Of a stretch of 49,291 nt of DNA, positions 1-7,805 are shown piece after piece. The translations under genes were made by a program, and so were the position numbers. A model generated the notes under the pieces. The model made no database searches. It was not told the DNA's origin and saw only the letters and a list, made by a program, of their open reading frames with translations. Position 1 is the first letter of the stretch. Every line of letters starts with the position of its first letter. Where the stretch lies: assembly GCF_021206925.1 (NCBI RefSeq), contig NZ_JAJPRF010000022.1, positions 1 through 49,291 on the forward strand, read 5' to 3'. Source of the DNA: Rhodoflexus caldus (GTDB lineage: Bacteria > Bacteroidota > Bacteroidia > Cytophagales > Thermoflexibacteraceae).

Positions 1-206
1 CCTGTGGCAGCCTTACATTTCTTGTCACTTTTAAGATGCGACGTGCAACGTGTGAAAAATACTTGCCATAGTTATATAAATTTGAAAGAATCACCAAGTA
101 AAATTAGGTAATTCACTGATAGTCACCAACCAAAAGGTCTAATGTTATTTCACTGCATTATTCATAAGCTTAATGAGAAATTTACCTTCTTAAGTAAACA
201 TATTTA

Positions 207-812
207 TCAGTTAGAGGATTGTTTACTGCTATCATACTTTAATGATAACGATTTCAGAAAGTAATCACCCACCTGAAATGAATCATTTTTTTCTAATATG
301 ATCATATTTGTAACTCTCAAAGAATCATCAATTATGAGATAAGAAGGCTGAGATAAAATGTCTCTTGTCAAACCAATACGATCTATATCGGTAAAAAACA
401 GAGGATATTTAATTTTATTTTTCTTCCAATAATATTGAATCTCCTCTTCTGTTGACTTATCTGAAATAACTACCATATTTGGTATATTATACTCTTCCAA
501 TCGCTCTATCTCTCTGTAAATACAACTTGAGCAATTTATAAAACCTGTTACGAAAAATACCTTAAAGGAATTATCGCTCAACAGTGTTTCAAAGTGTACT
601 GTATCAGTTCCGGAAATTAAAGGGCACTTAAATGTAAGTCTTTTCCCTATCTCAGCTAAACTTTTTGCCTGCCTATTCTTCTGTGAATCCAGCTGAGCTT
701 TATATTCAAACTCTGCTTGAGAATAACTGGAATACTCCCTGAAAATAAGAAGTACTAAAGATAGATTCAACGTAACCGAAGCAGCCAAAATGACCTTATC
801 TAATTTATTCAT
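207..812 (-). CDS. Membrane-anchored thioredoxin-fold protein with CSSC motif
   Basis: The 201-residue protein starts with one hydrophobic segment (about residues 7-24), probably an uncleaved anchor that puts the rest in the periplasm. A thioredoxin-like fold follows. FINCSSCIYREIE places a CxxC pair at C94/C97 after a beta strand (VFFVTGF), and SQPSYLIID around P156 fits the cis-proline strand that faces the active site. A further cysteine sits at C63. Proteins of this shape, related to the TlpA/AhpC-TSA group, reduce, oxidise or isomerise disulfides. The gene lies 6 bp downstream of the propeller lipoprotein gene and probably shares its transcript, which also seems to include a four-cysteine secreted peptide. 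I infer, without proof, that this protein acts on those cysteines. No close named family was recognised. Confidence 0.75.
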   Translation of the reverse strand: MNKLDKVILAASVTLNLSLVLLIFREYSSYSQAEFEYKAQLDSQKNRQAKSLAEIGKRLTFKCPLISGTDTVHFETLLSDNSFKVFFVTGFINCSSCIYREIERLEEYNIPNMVVISDKSTEEEIQYYWKKNKIKYPLFFTDIDRIGLTRDILSQPSYLIIDDSLRVTNMIILEKNDSFQVGDYFLKSLSLKYDSSKQSSN

Positions 813-818
813 GAGTAA

Positions 819-2087
819 TTAATAGTTTTGAGTATGTTTCAATCTAAACTGAATCAGAAATGGCATTTCCTGCTCTTCAAATTTTAATAGTTTAGCAAGT
901 TCCGCTTTGGTTTTAGCATGTACTTTGTCGCTGGCAATGGCCTGTTTCAAGAGTGTTTTATTGATTTTATGTAGATAGCTATAGCCTATAAAATCGTGAA
1001 GCTTACTAAAACTAAGTCGCTCTATGCCAATTCCAAAAAGAGAAAAATTTTTCTCCCGAACTTTGTAGGAAAGATATTCGTGCCTGTCCACAAAATGAAA
1101 AAACTTATCCTCGCGGTCTTTCTCATTACTGAGCCATTCAAAGTGAAGAAAAGTACGTCCGACTAAGAGGTTGCCGATACTAAATGAACTCCCCGCTTGC
1201 TGAATCATCTGCCCGATACGCATCAGGTCTTCCTGCTTTTTAATTTCTTCCGGCAGTTTCTTCTTACCAAAGTCTATCACATAATCAGGACAAATTTGTC
1301 CATTTACCGGGCCAATCCAGTAAATAGTATCCATCATGGCGCTTGAAAAATAGACGCTGCCATCGTACAGTGAAAATTGAATACGACTTGGGAAGGCATC
1401 TACCATTCCATATTCCCATGCTCCTTTCTTCATTACTTTTTCACCGCTGATGTCACTGTAAAGCAATAAAGGCTTTTTCTGCCCCATGTAGTCGCGCCCA
1501 TCTAAGTGATAAATGTACCAGTCTTCAGTTACGGGATAAAATGACACTATTTCCTTATTTATTTTCTTTTCTTCCAAAAAATCGCCGTTGAGAGAAAAAC
1601 TAAGCATTTTGTGTTGGGGTAAGTCCCAAACCTGCAATATTTTTCGGTGCACGTTGTATTGTACATCCCACATTTTTTTGTATTGCCCCGGTCCTTGTCC
1701 GGTATCATCAATGACAAACTTCAGTTTTCCGTCCCTGTTGAAAGCGTATATTTTATTGGCAATCTGTAAGTCAGCTATATAAATAAGCGAATCGCCATAA
1801 TCCCAGAGTTTGCTTATCTCTCCTAACAGGTGTTTAGGGTCGTCTATCTGTAAAGGAGTGATGGAAATAGCGTAATTAGAATCCAATAAATCTTCTAAGG
1901 TCTTTTCCTGTGCATTTTCCATGCTAATCAGATAATTGTACCCCGCCGGGTTCGTGCAATCCTTTCCACGCGGAAACAGGACATCGGTACTGTACTGCGA
2001 TTGCTCAGTTTCTTTATTATCGCTTTGGCAGGAACCTAATAGCAAACATAAAAACAGACAGCCGGATAAATAAATAAGTTGTTTCAT
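819..2087 (-). CDS. 6-bladed beta-propeller lipoprotein (Bacteroidota type)
   Basis: The 422-residue precursor has a type II signal peptide with lipobox LLGSC (lipidated Cys at about residue 20), so it should be anchored to a membrane facing the periplasm or cell surface. The body has repeated beta-rich blades with patterns such as SLIYIADLQIANKIYAFNRDG and DGSVYFSSAMMDTIYW. These are typical of the 6-bladed propeller lipoproteins of Bacteroidota (BF3164-like, PF17170-type). In the family these are often encoded beside small NVEALA-type secreted peptides, which matches the peptide gene 154 bp upstream here. The substrate or partner is unknown. The C-terminal 60 residues are helical and charged rather than blade-like. 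The ATG is followed directly by the signal peptide, so the start is secure. Confidence 0.8.
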   Translation of the reverse strand: MKQLIYLSGCLFLCLLLGSCQSDNKETEQSQYSTDVLFPRGKDCTNPAGYNYLISMENAQEKTLEDLLDSNYAISITPLQIDDPKHLLGEISKLWDYGDSLIYIADLQIANKIYAFNRDGKLKFVIDDTGQGPGQYKKMWDVQYNVHRKILQVWDLPQHKMLSFSLNGDFLEEKKINKEIVSFYPVTEDWYIYHLDGRDYMGQKKPLLLYSDISGEKVMKKGAWEYGMVDAFPSRIQFSLYDGSVYFSSAMMDTIYWIGPVNGQICPDYVIDFGKKKLPEEIKKQEDLMRIGQMIQQAGSSFSIGNLLVGRTFLHFEWLSNEKDREDKFFHFVDRHEYLSYKVREKNFSLFGIGIERLSFSKLHDFIGYSYLHKINKTLLKQAIASDKVHAKTKAELAKLLKFEEQEMPFLIQFRLKHTQNY

Positions 2088-2241
2088 TCTTGTTGGGAAT
2101 TGAATATGGATGAATACCTGCGTAATAATTTAAATTGATTCACTCTTTTGAATTGAAAGCTTAAAAGTGGGGAAATATACAACTGTAACTTCCCCACTGA
2201 AAATTTTGCTATAAGCCTAATATTTGTTTAAGCAAAAAATA

Positions 2242-2478
2242 CTACCAGTGGTTACAACTACCTCCTGTTGAGCAGGAATACTCATGTGAATTGTCACATG
2301 CTATCTCCCATCTACACTTCCAGTATTGCTTCCCTTTACCATCTCCGGGACCAAGATTCTCCTGTGCTTTCACATTACCAGGAAAGGCTATCCAGATAGC
2401 GGATGACAATATTAACCCTAAGAAACCTCCATAAATATGAGGCTTTGCTGAGGTAAAAACGGCTCTAATTTTCGTCAT
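2242..2478 (-). CDS. Secreted four-cysteine peptide precursor, NVEALA-like
   Basis: A 78-residue product. Residues 1-38 form a basic then hydrophobic leader (hydrophobic core about 16-32) that ends in GNVKAQ, a likely signal-peptidase site. The mature part would be about 40 residues, glycine-rich at its start, with the pattern C-x5-C-x7-C-x5-C-x3-end. NVKAQ followed by a short Cys-rich tail recalls the NVEALA peptides (PF14055) of Bacteroidota, which also sit beside propeller lipoproteins; similarity to the named motif is partial. Two disulfides are possible. The gene is first in a minus-strand set with the propeller and CXXC genes. Its upstream region carries a TTTG-N19-TTTATTTG promoter-like arrangement with a T14 tract in the spacer. 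The function is unknown; signalling peptide, bacteriocin or adhesion ligand are all possible. Confidence 0.65.
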   Translation of the reverse strand: MTKIRAVFTSAKPHIYGGFLGLILSSAIWIAFPGNVKAQENLGPGDGKGKQYWKCRWEIACDNSHEYSCSTGGSCNHW

Positions 2479-2547
2479 GATTGAAAAATTTTTAAAGTGA
2501 TAGAATAAAGCAGACAGTAGCTTGCGCGCTTATAACTACATCTGATG

Positions 2548-2578
2548 CAAATAAAAAAAAAAAAAATACATCTCCAAA
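2548..2578 (-). promoter_or_regulatory. Candidate promoter of the peptide operon
   Basis: Read on the minus strand, TTTG (2578-2575) is separated by 19 nt from TTTATTTG (2555-2548). This differs by one base from the Bacteroidota -7 consensus TAnnTTTG and has the usual -33/-7 spacing. Transcription would start near 2542, giving a leader of about 64 nt before the peptide ATG at 2478. Most of the spacer is a run of T. The assignment rests on consensus match only. Confidence 0.4.
2553..2566. repeat. A14/T14 homopolymer tract
   Basis: Fourteen consecutive A on the plus strand (T on the coding strand of the peptide operon). It is the longest homopolymer noticed in the window. It lies within the spacer of the candidate promoter, about 75 nt upstream of the peptide start codon. 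Tracts of this length are prone to slipped-strand length change. Confidence 0.9.
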
Positions 2579-2813
2579 TAAATCATTCATTGTTTATACT
2601 GATATTTCCTACTATTTGAGAGGCCATCTGATGATTATTGTACAAATCAATTAGCATTGGTAGTACTAATGAGGCTATATTGATACAACCAGTAGTGAAA
2701 TACATCAATATAAGCGCCTCTGCTTATCAAATAAGCCTTCTATAATTCAGATTTTTAGCAGATGATGCAGATTTTTGCTGATTTTTTAGTCTGATGTGTT
2801 GTAAACAGTGAAA

Positions 2814-2984
2814 TAAGCAGGTGAGCAAATTAACGCGTTCTTTTTTACCGCAGAGTGCGCAAAGGTTTAACCGCAGTGTACACAAAGAAAAAATTTATCA
2901 TAAAAACACTTAGCGCTCTTTGCGTAATACTCAGTGGGCTTTGCGGTAAATTTGAAAGGTCGTTTTAAGTTGCTCACTTACTTA
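2814..2984. repeat. Nested inverted-repeat intergenic element
   Basis: The outer arms are GTGAGCAA (2821-2828) and TTGCTCAC (2970-2977), within about 17-nt imperfect arms. The inner arms are TTTACCGCA (2844-2852) and TGCGGTAAA (2942-2950), a perfect 9-bp inverted pair. Between them are two direct repeats, ACCGCAGAGTGCGCAAAG (2847-2864) and ACCGCAGTGTACACAAAG (2870-2887), and a degenerate inverted copy near 2910-2946. The ACCGCA...CGCAAAG unit resembles dispersed intergenic repeats seen in many Bacteroidota genomes. There is no coding capacity. Confidence 0.6.
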
Positions 2985-2989
2985 CTACT

Positions 2990-3616
2990 TTACTTTGCAG
3001 GACTGCACCACCTGTTCCCTGCAATACGAAAGCGCCAGGGCAGCAGGGCATCTTCACCGGCATAGTCCACACCTACGCGCGGGCTGCTGATAATTTGCTC
3101 ATCGGCAATGGGTGGGCCGTCCGTAATCCATATTTGATTGCCTTGCAGCGATAGTCCGTAATGAATTGTTTGTATGCCCATAGCCTTTGTAAGTGCGCCC
3201 GGGCCTGCTGTCAGGCGGTAATCGTTGGGTTTATATATTTTCCGCCGTTGCATCATCAGTTCTACGTTATAAAGCGGCTCTACCGCACGCACCAGCACGG
3301 CATCCGCAAATCCTTCTTCGTGTGTTACCACATTAAACAAGGCATGAATACCATAGCAAAGGTAAACATAGGCCACTCCGCCCGCTGCAAACATGACTTC
3401 TGTGCGCTTGGTGCGCCTGTTCAAATGCGCATGGCAGGCGCGGTCGGTGGCACCACAGTAGGCTTCCGTTTCTACGATTCGCGCCGCACATAAGCCGTCT
3501 TCCATGTTGGTAATCAGCACCTTACCCAATAAGTCTTTGGCAATTTGCACTACATCGGAGCGTCTGTAAAACGCAAGCGGCAAGGGCGGGGACTCGTAAA
3601 AAAATGACAGATTCAT
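2990..3616 (-). CDS. mpg: 3-methyladenine DNA glycosylase, AAG family
   Basis: The 208-residue protein has the AAG fold signature throughout: LLGKVL, RIVETEAYCG, a basic stretch RRTKRTEVMF, VYLCYGIHALFNVV and LTAGPGALTKAMGI. E51 in VETEAY matches the catalytic glutamate of human AAG, and Y53 matches its base-stacking tyrosine. The enzyme excises alkylated purines and hypoxanthine from DNA as the first step of base excision repair, and acts in the cytoplasm. The length is normal for the bacterial family (about 200). A TAAATTTG box lies only 4 bp before the ATG, with TTTG 23 bp further upstream, so the mRNA may have almost no leader. The gene is divergent from the HAD phosphatase gene, with 57 bp between the starts. 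Confidence 0.92.
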   Translation of the reverse strand: MNLSFFYESPPLPLAFYRRSDVVQIAKDLLGKVLITNMEDGLCAARIVETEAYCGATDRACHAHLNRRTKRTEVMFAAGGVAYVYLCYGIHALFNVVTHEEGFADAVLVRAVEPLYNVELMMQRRKIYKPNDYRLTAGPGALTKAMGIQTIHYGLSLQGNQIWITDGPPIADEQIISSPRVGVDYAGEDALLPWRFRIAGNRWCSPAK

Positions 3617-3673
3617 ACGTCAAATTTAAGGTGCGTTCTCCGGCATTTAACCAAATGAATCGTATTTTTGACT

Positions 3674-4336
3674 ATGAAAACACCTGCTTTTGTATTTGAT
3701 ATGGACGGTGTGATTGTGAACAGCAATCCATATCATAAAGTTGCGCTGCAAATGTTTTGCCGACGGCTGGGCTTTAATTTGGACGAAGAGGAGATGATTC
3801 ACAAAATTTACGGACGTACCAACAAAGAGTGGATTAGCAATCTCTTTGGCGGAGATATTGAAGCCGACCTGCTGGCGCAATACGGTATAGAGAAAGAGTT
3901 ACTCTATCAGGAACTTTATAAACCACATATTCAACCGTTGGCAGGTTTGCAGGAATTTCTTCAATTGCTTGATTTACAGAGTATCCCAAGAGCCATTGCA
4001 ACTTCTGCACCGCGCATGAATGTAGATTTCACTTTGGGTAATACAGGATTGAGCGGTTTTTTCAGTATCATTTTAGACGAGAGCCACGTGTTGCACGGCA
4101 AACCTAACCCCGAAATTTACCTGAAAGCTGCTGCCGCGCTGCAACTGCCACCTGAGCGGTGTATCGTTTTTGAAGATTCGCTTTCGGGGGTGGCTGCCGC
4201 CCAAGCTGCCGGATGCAAAGTAGTAGGCGTACTCACCACACACAGTGCCGACGAACTGGCTCATACCGACATGACTATTGAAGATTTTACTAATTTGCAG
4301 CCCGAAAAAATTTATCGTCAAATCAATTTATTATGA
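3674..4336 (+). CDS. HAD-superfamily phosphatase (beta-phosphoglucomutase-like)
   Basis: The ATG at 3674 gives 220 residues starting MKTPAFVFDMDGV; an in-frame TTG two codons upstream is less likely. Motif I FDMDG holds the nucleophile D9 and acid/base D11. Motif II is ATSAP, motif III lysine lies in GKPNP, and motif IV is FEDSLSG. A helical cap between motifs I and II (about residues 18-85) places it in the PGMB/CbbY subgroup, which hydrolyse or isomerise phosphosugars or other small phosphates. The exact substrate cannot be told. The stop overlaps the next start (ATGA), so it is co-translated with the SixA-like gene. A TATTTTTG promoter box ends 3 bp before the ATG. Confidence 0.85.
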   Translation: MKTPAFVFDMDGVIVNSNPYHKVALQMFCRRLGFNLDEEEMIHKIYGRTNKEWISNLFGGDIEADLLAQYGIEKELLYQELYKPHIQPLAGLQEFLQLLDLQSIPRAIATSAPRMNVDFTLGNTGLSGFFSIILDESHVLHGKPNPEIYLKAAAALQLPPERCIVFEDSLSGVAAAQAAGCKVVGVLTTHSADELAHTDMTIEDFTNLQPEKIYRQINLL

Positions 4337-4821
4337 AAACGCTGTACATCGTTCGCCATGCGCAGGCAGAAGACCACTACCTCTACCAACGCGATTTTGA
4401 CCGCGAACTCACCTCTCAGGGCATCAGAAAGGCTGTTCAGGTAGGTAAGCAATTAGCCGCCGAGGGTAATATCCCCGAAGTGATTATTGCAAGCAGTGCG
4501 GTTCGTACCCGCCAAACGGCTGCCTTGCTGGCCGAAAATTTGGGTGTTGGCGAATCGGCCATCATTCTTGAAGAAGATTTATACAACGCTTCTCCGCGAA
4601 CATTGCTGCATGTGGTTTGTCATATCAGCGATAATTTTCGGAAAGTAATGCTGGTGGGGCACAATCCGGGCGTAAGTTATCTGGCAGAGTGGCTGACGGG
4701 CAGCCGCGACATCAACAGCATGGCAACTTGCAGTGTGGCGCATGTAGTACTCAACCTGCCCCATTGGGCAGCAACCGAACAAAATTGCGGAACTTTGCTG
4801 CAATACCGCGATTTTGATTAA
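4333..4821 (+). CDS. SixA-like phosphohistidine phosphatase (histidine phosphatase family)
   Basis: A 162-residue member of the histidine phosphatase (phosphoglycerate mutase-like) superfamily. The N-terminal LYIVRHAQAED carries the catalytic H9 after R8. ASSAVRTRQTAALL supplies the second arginine, and VGHNPG the second histidine (about residue 109). Its short length and the RHA rather than RHG motif fit the SixA branch. In Escherichia coli that branch dephosphorylates HPt domains and a phosphotransfer protein of the nitrogen PTS. It overlaps the HAD gene by 4 bp and lies 18 bp before the methyltransferase gene. The hybrid kinase at 24373-26955 has an HPt domain, but nothing here links the two proteins directly. 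Confidence 0.82.
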   Translation: MKTLYIVRHAQAEDHYLYQRDFDRELTSQGIRKAVQVGKQLAAEGNIPEVIIASSAVRTRQTAALLAENLGVGESAIILEEDLYNASPRTLLHVVCHISDNFRKVMLVGHNPGVSYLAEWLTGSRDINSMATCSVAHVVLNLPHWAATEQNCGTLLQYRDFD

Positions 4822-4839
4822 CCCTTGTCAATTTATTCC

Positions 4840-5736
4840 ATGCAGGCGCATTACCCTTGTCCCGATTGTAACGGCGAACAATTTGCTGCTTTTCATACCT
4901 GCCGCGACTATACTGTCAGCGGTGAGCTTTTTACACTGGCGCGTTGCCGCCAATGCCAAATGGTTATTACGCAGCAACCTCCGCCTTCCGAAAAAATCGG
5001 AAGTTATTATAAATCAGAAGATTACGTTTCACACAGTGATACGAAGCGCGGGCTGTTTTTTCGCTTGTATCACTTAGCGCGCGGATGGATGCTCCAATCT
5101 AAGCGCAAACTGGTAGAAAAATACAGCGGCAAAACCAACGGCAAACTGCTTGACTGGGGCTGTGGCACCGGCTACTTCCCTGCCGCCATGCAACAGGCCG
5201 GCTGGCAGGTGCAAGGCATAGAGGCCGATGAAGATGCGCGCAACTATGCCCGCCAAAAGTTCAGCCTCGCGGTTTTTGCCCCTGAGAAAGTTACACAATT
5301 GCCTGACAGTCAATATGATTGCATTAGCTTCTGGCACGTGATGGAGCACCTCCACGACCTTCGGGGAACAATTGCCAATATTGAGCGGCTGCTTGCTCCC
5401 CAAGGTATTGTCGTAGTTGCTTTGCCCAATCAGCAGAGTTATGACGCATGGTACTACGGCAGGTATTGGGCGGCATGGGATGTTCCGCGCCATTTGTGGC
5501 ACTTTGCCCCGCAAAATATTGAACGGCTGATGGCTGCAAACGGCTTCGGGCTGCTGCATAAACAAACCATGCCTTTTGACCCGTTCTACGTTGCCCTGCT
5601 TAGCGAAAAATACCGCGAAAAGCGTTGGGGATTCATCAACGGTATTTTGCAGGGGTTTATTTCGCTTGTCAAAGGCTACCTGAATGTTAATCAATCTTCA
5701 TCGGTTATTTACGTTTTTTCCCGCAAGCGGCAATAG
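4840..5736 (+). CDS. Class I SAM-dependent methyltransferase with N-terminal zinc ribbon
   Basis: The ATG at 4840 gives 298 residues. An N-terminal treble-clef or zinc-ribbon-like module has CPDC (C7/C10) and CRQC (C36/C39). A Rossmann methyltransferase follows, with motif I LLDWGCGTGYF near residue 100, the acidic motif II GIEADE, and WHVMEHLHD, typical of Methyltransf_11/23 enzymes. The C-terminal FDPFYVALL and FINGILQGF segments are hydrophobic and may touch the membrane. Relatives with this Cys4 head often act on glycans or lipid-linked substrates; the substrate here is unknown. The stop TAG shares its last base with the GTG start of the SpoIIE gene, so translation is likely coupled. Confidence 0.85.
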   Translation: MQAHYPCPDCNGEQFAAFHTCRDYTVSGELFTLARCRQCQMVITQQPPPSEKIGSYYKSEDYVSHSDTKRGLFFRLYHLARGWMLQSKRKLVEKYSGKTNGKLLDWGCGTGYFPAAMQQAGWQVQGIEADEDARNYARQKFSLAVFAPEKVTQLPDSQYDCISFWHVMEHLHDLRGTIANIERLLAPQGIVVVALPNQQSYDAWYYGRYWAAWDVPRHLWHFAPQNIERLMAANGFGLLHKQTMPFDPFYVALLSEKYREKRWGFINGILQGFISLVKGYLNVNQSSSVIYVFSRKRQ

Positions 5737-7805
5737 TGATTCAGGCATTTGGTTTTACTGCCCGTTTAGTCCGTTTTTTGAGCAACAACGGTTTCCTGCT
5801 GGCAGCAGCTTTTTGTTGGCTGGTATGGGAGATACCGCCCGAAATGGCAGGCTTCCCGCAGAATACGCCGTCCATGTCCTATGCGTTGGAGTCGTTTCTG
5901 CTCAATGGGTTCATTGGTTTTTTGTTTTTAGACCTTTTAAAACGCAATTTTTCGGATTACAGCGAAGCCGGTAGTTTTATCGGCGAAATGGTAAAAATTT
6001 TTTTCGTAGCTGTTGGCGGTACTACTGTGTCATTGTTGCTGTTTCACGCCAATCAAGATTTCAGACAGAGTTTTCTGTTTCAGTGGTTAGGCCATGTCTG
6101 GATTTACAAGATTGAATTTGCAGCCATTGTGGTGGTGCTGCTGTTTGTGTACGTCGTTTGGCGGAAACTGATTTTTTTCGGCAGGTCGCCCTACGTGGTC
6201 ATGGTTTGGCAGTTTTTTGAAGGCTTTCTGTTCCTTAGCCTGCTTTTCCATACGGTGCCGCATCCCTACTTGCATCGCATCACCCACTTTGAGTGGATAG
6301 AACAAGGTTTGATAGTGCTTTCATGGCTGTTGGCTTTTATGGCCTCCTTCAACCTGAGTTGGGTGGCATTGTTGCGCTATCGGGAGAAATGGTTTACGCT
6401 GTTTGTCTTTGTGATACTGTTTGTTTGCTTAGGCTACTTTTTTGGTATCCGAAAAGTGCCGCTGGAAGGCAGCGAATATTACTTTGACCTAACGGAAAGC
6501 ATTTTTCTGGCAGTCATCCTCATTTTTATTACGGTTTACAGTGCCTTTTCTTTTCTTACGGTGCTTTTTAATTTGCCGACTTCTAATATTATTGAGCGCA
6601 AATTTTCGGAAATTTCGGAGCTGAATCGGCTGCTGGTGCACGATTTCCGCAACGAAGAGCAGTTTTTTGAAAAAATTTTAGACATTGCTATCAACACATT
6701 CAAAGCGGATGCTGCATGGTTAGATGTGGCGGGAAGTAAACCCTTCATCGGTCGGCACATTACCAAATTGAAGGCCGGCTACATCCGACAGGCGATTGAC
6801 CAAACAGGCTACGGCTGGGATACAAGTAAAAAGTTTCTTTCCAAAAACCTCGCGCTGCCCGCAGACCTGATACCTTTTGCTACGATATTGGTAGTGCCCT
6901 TGCAGCGCCGCAATCAACAGGTGGGAGTTTTGGTGTTGTTGGCAAAAATTTCCAGCATATTTGATAACGTGCTGCTGCCTCATTCTACCTTGAACCATTA
7001 CGCGGGGCAGGCTGCTCTTGCATTAGACAATATGCAATTACTGGCCGATGCGGTAGATAATGAGCGATTTCAGGCAGAAATTGCAGCGGCTAAAAAAGTC
7101 AGGGAAGAGCTTTTGCCCGCCATCAATTTTAGGCAGGGCAACTTGCAGGTGATTGCCAAAACACATTCGCCGGAAATTATTGGCGGCGATTTTTATGACT
7201 ATTACCGATTTTCGGCACATCGCATAGCTTTTATCCTTGGCGACGTGGCGGGCAAAGGCACGTCGGCGGTGTTTCATATGTCGCAAATGAAAGGCATTTT
7301 CCAGAGTTTAGCCCAGTTGGACTTGCCTCCTGACCGCTTCATGGTACATGCCAATCAGGCTTTGGCACACTGCCTGCCGCCGCAGATGTTTATTACGGCC
7401 ATTTATTTGGTGGTAGATACCGAAAAACAACAGTTTTGCTATGCGCGTGCGGGGCATTGTCCGTTGATTCATGTAAAAGCAGCCACGGGTGAGGCTGTGC
7501 TGGCCGAAAGCAAAGGCATGGGCTTGGGCATTATACGCAGCCGTCAATTTGAGCAATACATCAGCGCGGAAACAGTGTCCTATCAACATGGTGATTTGCT
7601 CGCGCTTTACACCGACGGCGTTGTGGAAATACGCTCCGAAAAGAATCAGGAAGAGTTTGGCTTTGAGCGCCTTCGCCAATTTTGTGCTGCTCATTACAAT
7701 CTTTCGGCAGAACAACTGCTTGCCAAAACCGAGCGCGAACTGCTGTCATTCTCCGGAAACGACAACAGCAACGACGATATGTCATTGCTGTTCATTAAGT
7801 TGTAA
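5736..7805 (+). CDS. Membrane GAF-SpoIIE (PP2C-type) serine phosphatase
   Basis: A 689-residue protein read from a GTG that overlaps the preceding stop; the next in-frame ATG is at residue 38, inside the first membrane region, so GTG is preferred. Residues 1-280 contain about nine hydrophobic segments. A short coiled-coil linker follows, then a GAF-like domain (about 300-440) and a SpoIIE phosphatase domain (about 465-689). Metal-binding acidic residues are visible in GGDFYD (D485) and GDVAGKG (D503), plus LYTDGVVE and DDMSLLF near the end. Such enzymes usually dephosphorylate anti-sigma-factor antagonists (STAS proteins); no STAS or RsbW gene is nearby. The gene ends a four-gene operon with the HAD, SixA-like and methyltransferase genes. 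Confidence 0.9.
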   Translation: MIQAFGFTARLVRFLSNNGFLLAAAFCWLVWEIPPEMAGFPQNTPSMSYALESFLLNGFIGFLFLDLLKRNFSDYSEAGSFIGEMVKIFFVAVGGTTVSLLLFHANQDFRQSFLFQWLGHVWIYKIEFAAIVVVLLFVYVVWRKLIFFGRSPYVVMVWQFFEGFLFLSLLFHTVPHPYLHRITHFEWIEQGLIVLSWLLAFMASFNLSWVALLRYREKWFTLFVFVILFVCLGYFFGIRKVPLEGSEYYFDLTESIFLAVILIFITVYSAFSFLTVLFNLPTSNIIERKFSEISELNRLLVHDFRNEEQFFEKILDIAINTFKADAAWLDVAGSKPFIGRHITKLKAGYIRQAIDQTGYGWDTSKKFLSKNLALPADLIPFATILVVPLQRRNQQVGVLVLLAKISSIFDNVLLPHSTLNHYAGQAALALDNMQLLADAVDNERFQAEIAAAKKVREELLPAINFRQGNLQVIAKTHSPEIIGGDFYDYYRFSAHRIAFILGDVAGKGTSAVFHMSQMKGIFQSLAQLDLPPDRFMVHANQALAHCLPPQMFITAIYLVVDTEKQQFCYARAGHCPLIHVKAATGEAVLAESKGMGLGIIRSRQFEQYISAETVSYQHGDLLALYTDGVVEIRSEKNQEEFGFERLRQFCAAHYNLSAEQLLAKTERELLSFSGNDNSNDDMSLLFIKL

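Follow-up and report, generated by a model that had tools for sequence, protein, structure and literature searches.

A minus-strand locus of Rhodoflexus caldus encoding a cysteine-rich peptide precursor, a beta-propeller lipoprotein and a CXXC protein

The DNA analysed was contig NZ_JAJPRF010000022.1 of Rhodoflexus caldus, positions 1 to 49,291; this whole stretch of 49,291 nucleotides (nt) is referred to as the window. Its open reading frames (ORFs) placed three genes on the minus strand between positions 207 and 2478. In the order of transcription they encode the precursor of an exported peptide (78 amino acids (aa), 2242-2478), a propeller lipoprotein (422 aa, 819-2087) and a protein with a CSSC motif and an N-terminal hydrophobic helix (201 aa, 207-812). 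The first-pass annotation, made from the letters and ORFs alone, had described the same three genes, and the ORFs and translations agreed with it down to the C-x5-C-x7-C-x5-C spacing of the peptide. The three-gene locus of peptide, propeller and CXXC protein was therefore confirmed as an observation. The propeller and CXXC genes are 6 nt apart, and 154 nt (2088-2241) separate the peptide and propeller genes.

The leader of the precursor ends in ...GNVKAQ, with NVKAQ lying immediately after the hydrophobic core. A site of the form V-x-A followed by Q, similar to those of signal peptidase I, would leave a mature part of 40 residues starting at the Q (2245-2364), with four Cys and a net charge of -1. 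Core and cleavage site were both judged by eye. Homologs of the peptide were sought by sequence in 148 genomes. Three genomes matched, one being the peptide's own, and the two remaining matches were weak, fell within open frames of 607 and 213 aa and look like chance. Nine ORFs in the window passed the bare criterion for such a precursor, eight of them away from the locus. These two results would suit the explanation that the peptide ORF is a chance frame and that only the propeller and CXXC genes matter, which we nevertheless find hardly credible from the position of such ORFs in other genomes.

The PF17170 (DUF5128) profile was searched against 291 genomes of the window's order; 37 had matches among the 150 matches listed, with up to seven candidates scored per genome, and 100 regions were taken around 122 of these 150. 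Peptides were counted by a strict rule (same-strand ORFs of 45-130 aa that start with ATG, lie at most 350 nt upstream and have a signal-like core followed by four or more Cys), signal peptides being called by simple hydropathy. Such a peptide lay upstream of 38 of the 122 propeller matches and downstream of 4 of the 122. After the ORFs of the regions and the window had been classed with a propeller profile, a peptide was found upstream of 46/159 propellers versus 12/344 other genes (p = 1.8e-15). The 12 other genes included DUF4221 lipoproteins (PF13970; L067, L107), a TolB_like lipoprotein (PF15869; L081) and a CXXC protein (L065), which puts the true background below 12/344. The other eight cases comprised two chance-like frames in L100, a frame of 206 aa in L121 and five frames of 354-396 aa that resemble lipoproteins; L086, the only one of these five that was scanned, matched no family.

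A strand control was made on 244 distinct propellers from both of our region collections, each with at least 300 nt of upstream sequence. Within 500 nt upstream, a strict signal-like Cys-rich ORF was present in sense orientation at 59 of the 244 and in antisense orientation at none, compared with 0.2 in shuffled sequences. This position-specific enrichment argues that the peptide ORF is not a product of chance. The window's peptide also shares a partial pattern, KCRW..AC..S..C, with other propeller-adjacent peptides. When 13 hand-picked peptides were aligned, it was in part similar to a CRW..(A)SCDVS.Q..C branch from other propeller loci, and the only invariant positions were the start Met and Cys. 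The pairing was also seen outside Bacteroidota: a Candidatus Aminicenantes metagenome-assembled genome (MAG) carries a six-Cys exported peptide before a propeller (L196, 1256-2329 and upstream).

The peptides of 65 distinct pairs, for which at least four Cys had been required by the selection, contained four Cys in 33 cases, five in 6, six in 24 and eight in 2. An even number was found in 44 of 48 non-redundant peptides, 21 having six or eight Cys and 4 having five or seven (p = 0.0005), which points to disulfides. The mature parts were acidic, with a mean net charge of -3.5 and none of the 48 at +2 or more, and this argues against ordinary cationic antimicrobials.

The gap between the peptide and propeller genes of the window contains a hairpin of 14 pairs with one bulge, followed by UUUU (2166-2198, minus strand), a possible partial terminator that was not called by the terminator scan; the fold of the whole gap had a z-score of -2.38. 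Among gaps of at least 40 nt, a fold-based rule found terminator-like hairpins in 23/42 peptide-propeller gaps versus 68/209 other same-strand gaps (p = 0.008). An ungapped hairpin rule (16/42 versus 35/213) was dropped because it missed the bulged stem of the window. A hairpin at this place fits the production of more peptide than propeller, and the enrichment is modest. The sigma-70 promoter scan found 13 promoters where chance alone predicts 11.1. The Bacteroidota -7 box is a TAnnTTTG-type motif; none was found within 200 nt upstream of the peptide gene. In the non-coding gap to the next gene (2840-2960), an imperfect palindrome-like stretch with the motifs accgcag... and ...ctttgcggtaaa was noticed by eye.

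The second gene encodes a member of PF17170 by profile (99.2 bits, cut-off 22.9, E = 3.3e-28), the sole match to this family at E ≤ 0.001 in its genome. A lipobox-like LLGSC is visible by eye, and two further Cys (C44, C266) lie beyond it. The AlphaFold model (predicted local distance difference test (pLDDT) 79.7, 32-row alignment) has the six-bladed propeller fold claimed in the first-pass annotation. Its best Protein Data Bank (PDB) matches were 4raa (E = 1.3e-17; template modelling score 0.77 over the target, 17% identity), which is the exported protein BF0058 of Bacteroides fragilis, and 3s9j (E = 2.9e-8), a DUF4221 protein. In a look for an acidic signal of export to the surface, at least two acidic residues followed the lipobox in 12/60 and 29/169 propellers, counted with a pattern that at times took a Cys inside the signal peptide. 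Tandem DUF5128 frames were observed in two regions, nine in L073 (3947-15389) and eight in L083 (2685-12860), where the strict rule found no peptide ORF.

The third protein carries its CSSC at residues 94-97. Alone it gave no Pfam match at E ≤ 1, hence neither Redoxin nor AhpC-TSA over the cut-off, no NCBIfam match over cut-off, and nothing useful in a homolog search. From the regions of both collections and the window, 23 CXXC rows beside propellers were gathered; three were dropped (L081 and L120, which look like Rrf2 regulators, and L089, the peptide itself). In the alignment of the remaining 20, with a mean column identity of 21%, C94, C97 and P156 were invariant. The CXXC is thus conserved, as is a Pro further on at the position of the cis-Pro, the cis state of P156 being assumed. 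The profile of the 20 rows matched DsbC (5.9e-6) and thioredoxins in the PDB, and among the rows weak matches were obtained to AhpC-TSA_2 in 6, AhpC-TSA in 4 and Redoxin in 3. A model of the window's protein (pLDDT 70.9, 8 rows) matched AhpC/TSA and ResA-type folds. The conserved residues, the profile matches and the model make it very probable that the protein has a thioredoxin fold behind an N-terminal membrane anchor, as had been claimed.

In 12 genomes chosen for their propellers, the CXXC profile had 21 matches at E ≤ 0.001, of which 16 reached E ≤ 1e-9. Each of these 16 adjoined a propeller; 11 of them were the profile's own rows, so that the new result is 5/5, mostly resembling profile rows. 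Of the five weaker matches, the three that were looked into lay beside a propeller (L254), beside a TolB_like lipoprotein (L256) and in a locus that also encodes a C39 exporter and a peptide of the double-glycine type (L255). With duplicate records merged strictly, a CXXC gene adjoined 10/65 propellers that had an upstream Cys-rich precursor versus 12/179 that had none (p = 0.045); looser merging gave 12/195 and p = 0.036. Peptide, propeller and CXXC genes stood in this order in a Holophagae MAG, outside Bacteroidota (L208). The same order, with an NVEALA (PF14055) peptide first, was found at L218, from an NVEALA-bearing order that is presumably Bacteroidales, and propeller then CXXC at L216, likewise presumably Bacteroidales. 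L217 was not taken as a three-gene set, since its NVEALA and CXXC genes flank a 367-aa lipoprotein that falls below the propeller profile. The CXXC family is linked to propellers and only mildly enriched with peptides, and this is the main result against the mechanism of the first-pass annotation, in which the CXXC protein set the disulfides of the peptide and the propeller bound or anchored it.

A stand-alone DUF1573 protein followed the propeller in L074, L121 and L105; L074 is on the same contig as L162, from Thermoflexibacter ruber, of the window's own family. In genome G625 a CTSC domain was fused to DUF1573 at L215 (6196-7065) and L216 (4304-5167). Both fusions adjoin NVEALA-type peptide and propeller genes.

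Another genome of the genus matched the window at 95% identity for 3 kb starting from position 2990. Past the end of the gene there, this genome carries a different gene and not the locus of the window, an empty site, and none of three same-genus genomes searched had a match to any of the three proteins. The guanine-plus-cytosine content was 0.359 in window 1-2989 versus 0.482 in the rest of the window. A dispersed repeat, probably the end of an insertion sequence (IS) element, occupies positions 1-145, where the contig breaks. It had 13 matches in the genome, itself included, some only 72-77% identical; it also starts several other contigs, and a split DDE_Tnp_4 transposase lies next to one interior copy. 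With its absence from the site in a close relative, its AT-rich composition and the IS-like repeat end, the locus looks acquired, and acquisition with a mobile element is likely; the alternative is loss in the relatives.

Taken together, we tentatively read the peptide and the propeller lipoprotein as a cognate pair, a disulfide-folded ligand or small subunit with its propeller, served by an optional thiol-disulfide helper, and we give this reading somewhat less than an even chance of being right. The locus of the window would be one copy, probably horizontally acquired, of a recurrent module with three slots. The first slot would hold a Sec-type precursor, predicted to be cleaved after VKA by signal peptidase, whose mature peptide of about 40 residues would be exported and held by two disulfides. 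The second would hold the propeller lipoprotein, a cognate carrier or receptor, with the peptide as its small ligand-like subunit. In a minority of copies, a membrane-anchored thioredoxin-fold protein in the third slot might form, reduce or proofread the disulfides of the peptide during export; in relatives a DUF1573 protein may take this slot or be fused to the CXXC domain. Display, recognition between cells and surface sensing are the candidate purposes.

Several results weigh against this reading. The window's peptide lacked a homolog in 147 other genomes except for the two chance-like matches. Distances between peptides and between propellers correlated weakly (mirror-tree rank correlation 0.17 in 51 non-redundant pairs, with 1 of 1000 permutations as high). 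Direct contact of peptide and propeller is suggested by this signal and by the pairing, and the earlier claim that the propeller binds or anchors the peptide was not supported as stated. No CXXC neighbour was present at 55 of the 65 peptide-propeller pairs, and the 12 of 179 propellers mentioned above had a CXXC gene and no strict peptide. Six of these 12 CXXC-propeller loci had no candidate peptide in 600 nt upstream (45 nt for L103); the first-pass annotation had named loss of the peptide frame where the other two genes are kept as evidence against itself, and this was partly borne out in relatives. These 55 pairs and six loci show that the peptide does not in general depend on the CXXC protein. 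Further Cys beyond the lipobox numbered 0 to 7 in propellers with a CXXC neighbour. Since propellers, that of the window included, carry such Cys, the peptide is not the sole possible substrate of the CXXC protein. What stands of the claim of one system is that the three genes recur together, and what stands of the claimed redox role is that even Cys numbers fit disulfides on which the CXXC protein might act in some copies.

The same observations bear on a second explanation, by which the CXXC protein (and DUF1573) shares a surface redox or folding task with the propeller, with the peptide as an independent, co-regulated neighbour. The CXXC family is tied more tightly to propellers (16/16 strong matches) than to peptides (10/65), a peptide is missing immediately upstream of some CXXC-propeller pairs, and the window's propeller offers two Cys beyond its lipobox. 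However, further Cys are lacking in 6 of the 20 propellers that adjoin a CXXC gene, so these six cannot be disulfide substrates, and the even Cys numbers of the peptides also speak against this explanation, which we judge unlikely.

Extended to the whole phylum, the cognate-pair reading would describe a class of acidic, highly divergent peptides folded by disulfides, each matched by a propeller lipoprotein of its own, partly spread by mobile elements and sometimes served by thioredoxin-fold or DUF1573 proteins. They would act as ligand-receptor pairs in cell-cell recognition, with NVEALA as one branch and with members in other phyla (the Holophagae MAG). We consider this wider proposal rather doubtful. 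The pairing itself extends beyond gut Bacteroidales. Its peptides, despite their great sequence divergence, have even Cys numbers in common, and the propellers are accompanied by a particular thioredoxin-fold family. An oddity of annotation thereby becomes a testable module, of which one can ask which propeller each peptide pairs with and whether its disulfides are set by the CXXC protein.

Methylamine dehydrogenase is a known system of similar composition, a propeller with a small disulfide-rich subunit that is served by the thioredoxin-like MauD. Its operon follows the same three-part logic as the locus: a propeller, a small Cys-rich exported partner and a thioredoxin-fold helper. The locus might by analogy encode a propeller enzyme with a small subunit, but no shared cofactor residue was seen in the peptides: Trp was absent from 13 of the 48 non-redundant peptides, and only the start Met and Cys were invariant in the 13 aligned rows. 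Moreover, no such dehydrogenase chain was among the 50 best PDB fold matches listed for the propeller, and the literature search gave no link between methylamine dehydrogenase and the locus. We regard such an enzyme as very improbable and retain the likeness as an analogy only.

Bacteroidetocins offer a second comparison, drawn here from the available passages of one paper (PMC6671954). These peptides have four Cys, and a thiol oxidoreductase encoded in their locus is thought by the authors to form their disulfides; small Cys4 peptide and thiol oxidoreductase are likewise combined in the window, and the bacteroidetocin enzyme may serve as a precedent, by analogy, for a redox step in which the CXXC protein acts on the peptide. 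According to the same passages Bacteroides lacks general disulfide-forming machinery; should that be true of more of the phylum, the folding of such peptides would be accounted for by a dedicated helper. The locus of the window might be a Sec-exported cousin whose peptide kills neighbouring bacteria, with the propeller lipoprotein as the producer's protection. Four Cys, a length of about 40 residues, the nearby oxidoreductase, the mobile-looking context and the occurrence of several divergent pairs within a single genome (G237, for example) would all agree with this. In contrast to the acidic peptides described here, bacteroidetocins have net charges of +6 and +2 (PMC6671954), and they have a double-glycine leader, a peptidase-ATP-binding cassette (ABC) exporter and a membrane protein, a propeller being unmentioned in those passages. 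When the ORFs of window 1-6000 were read, without a profile run on each ORF and with the contig ending at position 1, no double-glycine leader or C39-type peptidase-ABC exporter was noticed. From leader, charge and exporter, the locus is not a bacteroidetocin locus. We also know of no propeller that serves as an immunity protein, and an antimicrobial with its immunity protein seems decidedly unlikely. A bacteroidetocin-like set was seen in the window's order at L255 (310-4277), with a C39 ABC exporter, an AhpC/TSA-type CXXC protein, a 212-aa protein and a double-glycine peptide with two Cys; its CXXC protein is only a distant relative of the propeller-linked one.

The closest known counterpart is NVEALA, which like DUF5128 is an already named family. 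In the literature searched, which held no preprints and few subscription journals, the names NVEALA, DUF5128 and DUF4221 were not found, nor was a function for the DUF5128 propellers or any discussion of peptide-propeller pairing; the string PF14055 did occur, by the titles probably as malaria-parasite gene names. For the propellers, one source lists a 6-bladed beta-propeller gene of B. thetaiotaomicron, BT0664, among iron-responsive genes (PMC10434189). Matches to PF14055 occurred in 2/395 genomes of the phylum sample and 3/80 of the order of G625. The first-pass annotation had taken the window's peptide as NVEALA-type, which did not hold by profile: the peptide gave no match to PF14055 at E ≤ 1, and its genome none at E ≤ 0.001. 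The leaders differ as well, by eye, the NVEALA motif lying well beyond the hydrophobic core and the window's leader lacking that long spacer. The setting is nevertheless the one that the first-pass annotation gave for Bacteroidota: in two Bacteroidales records (L193, L205), NVEALA peptides over the PF14055 cut-off directly precede PF17170 propellers, and NVEALA precursors are likewise short and exported, with a Cys-rich tail. Judged by sequence, the window's peptide is outside PF14055 and fills the slot of NVEALA, that of an exported Cys-rich precursor beside a DUF5128 propeller lipoprotein.

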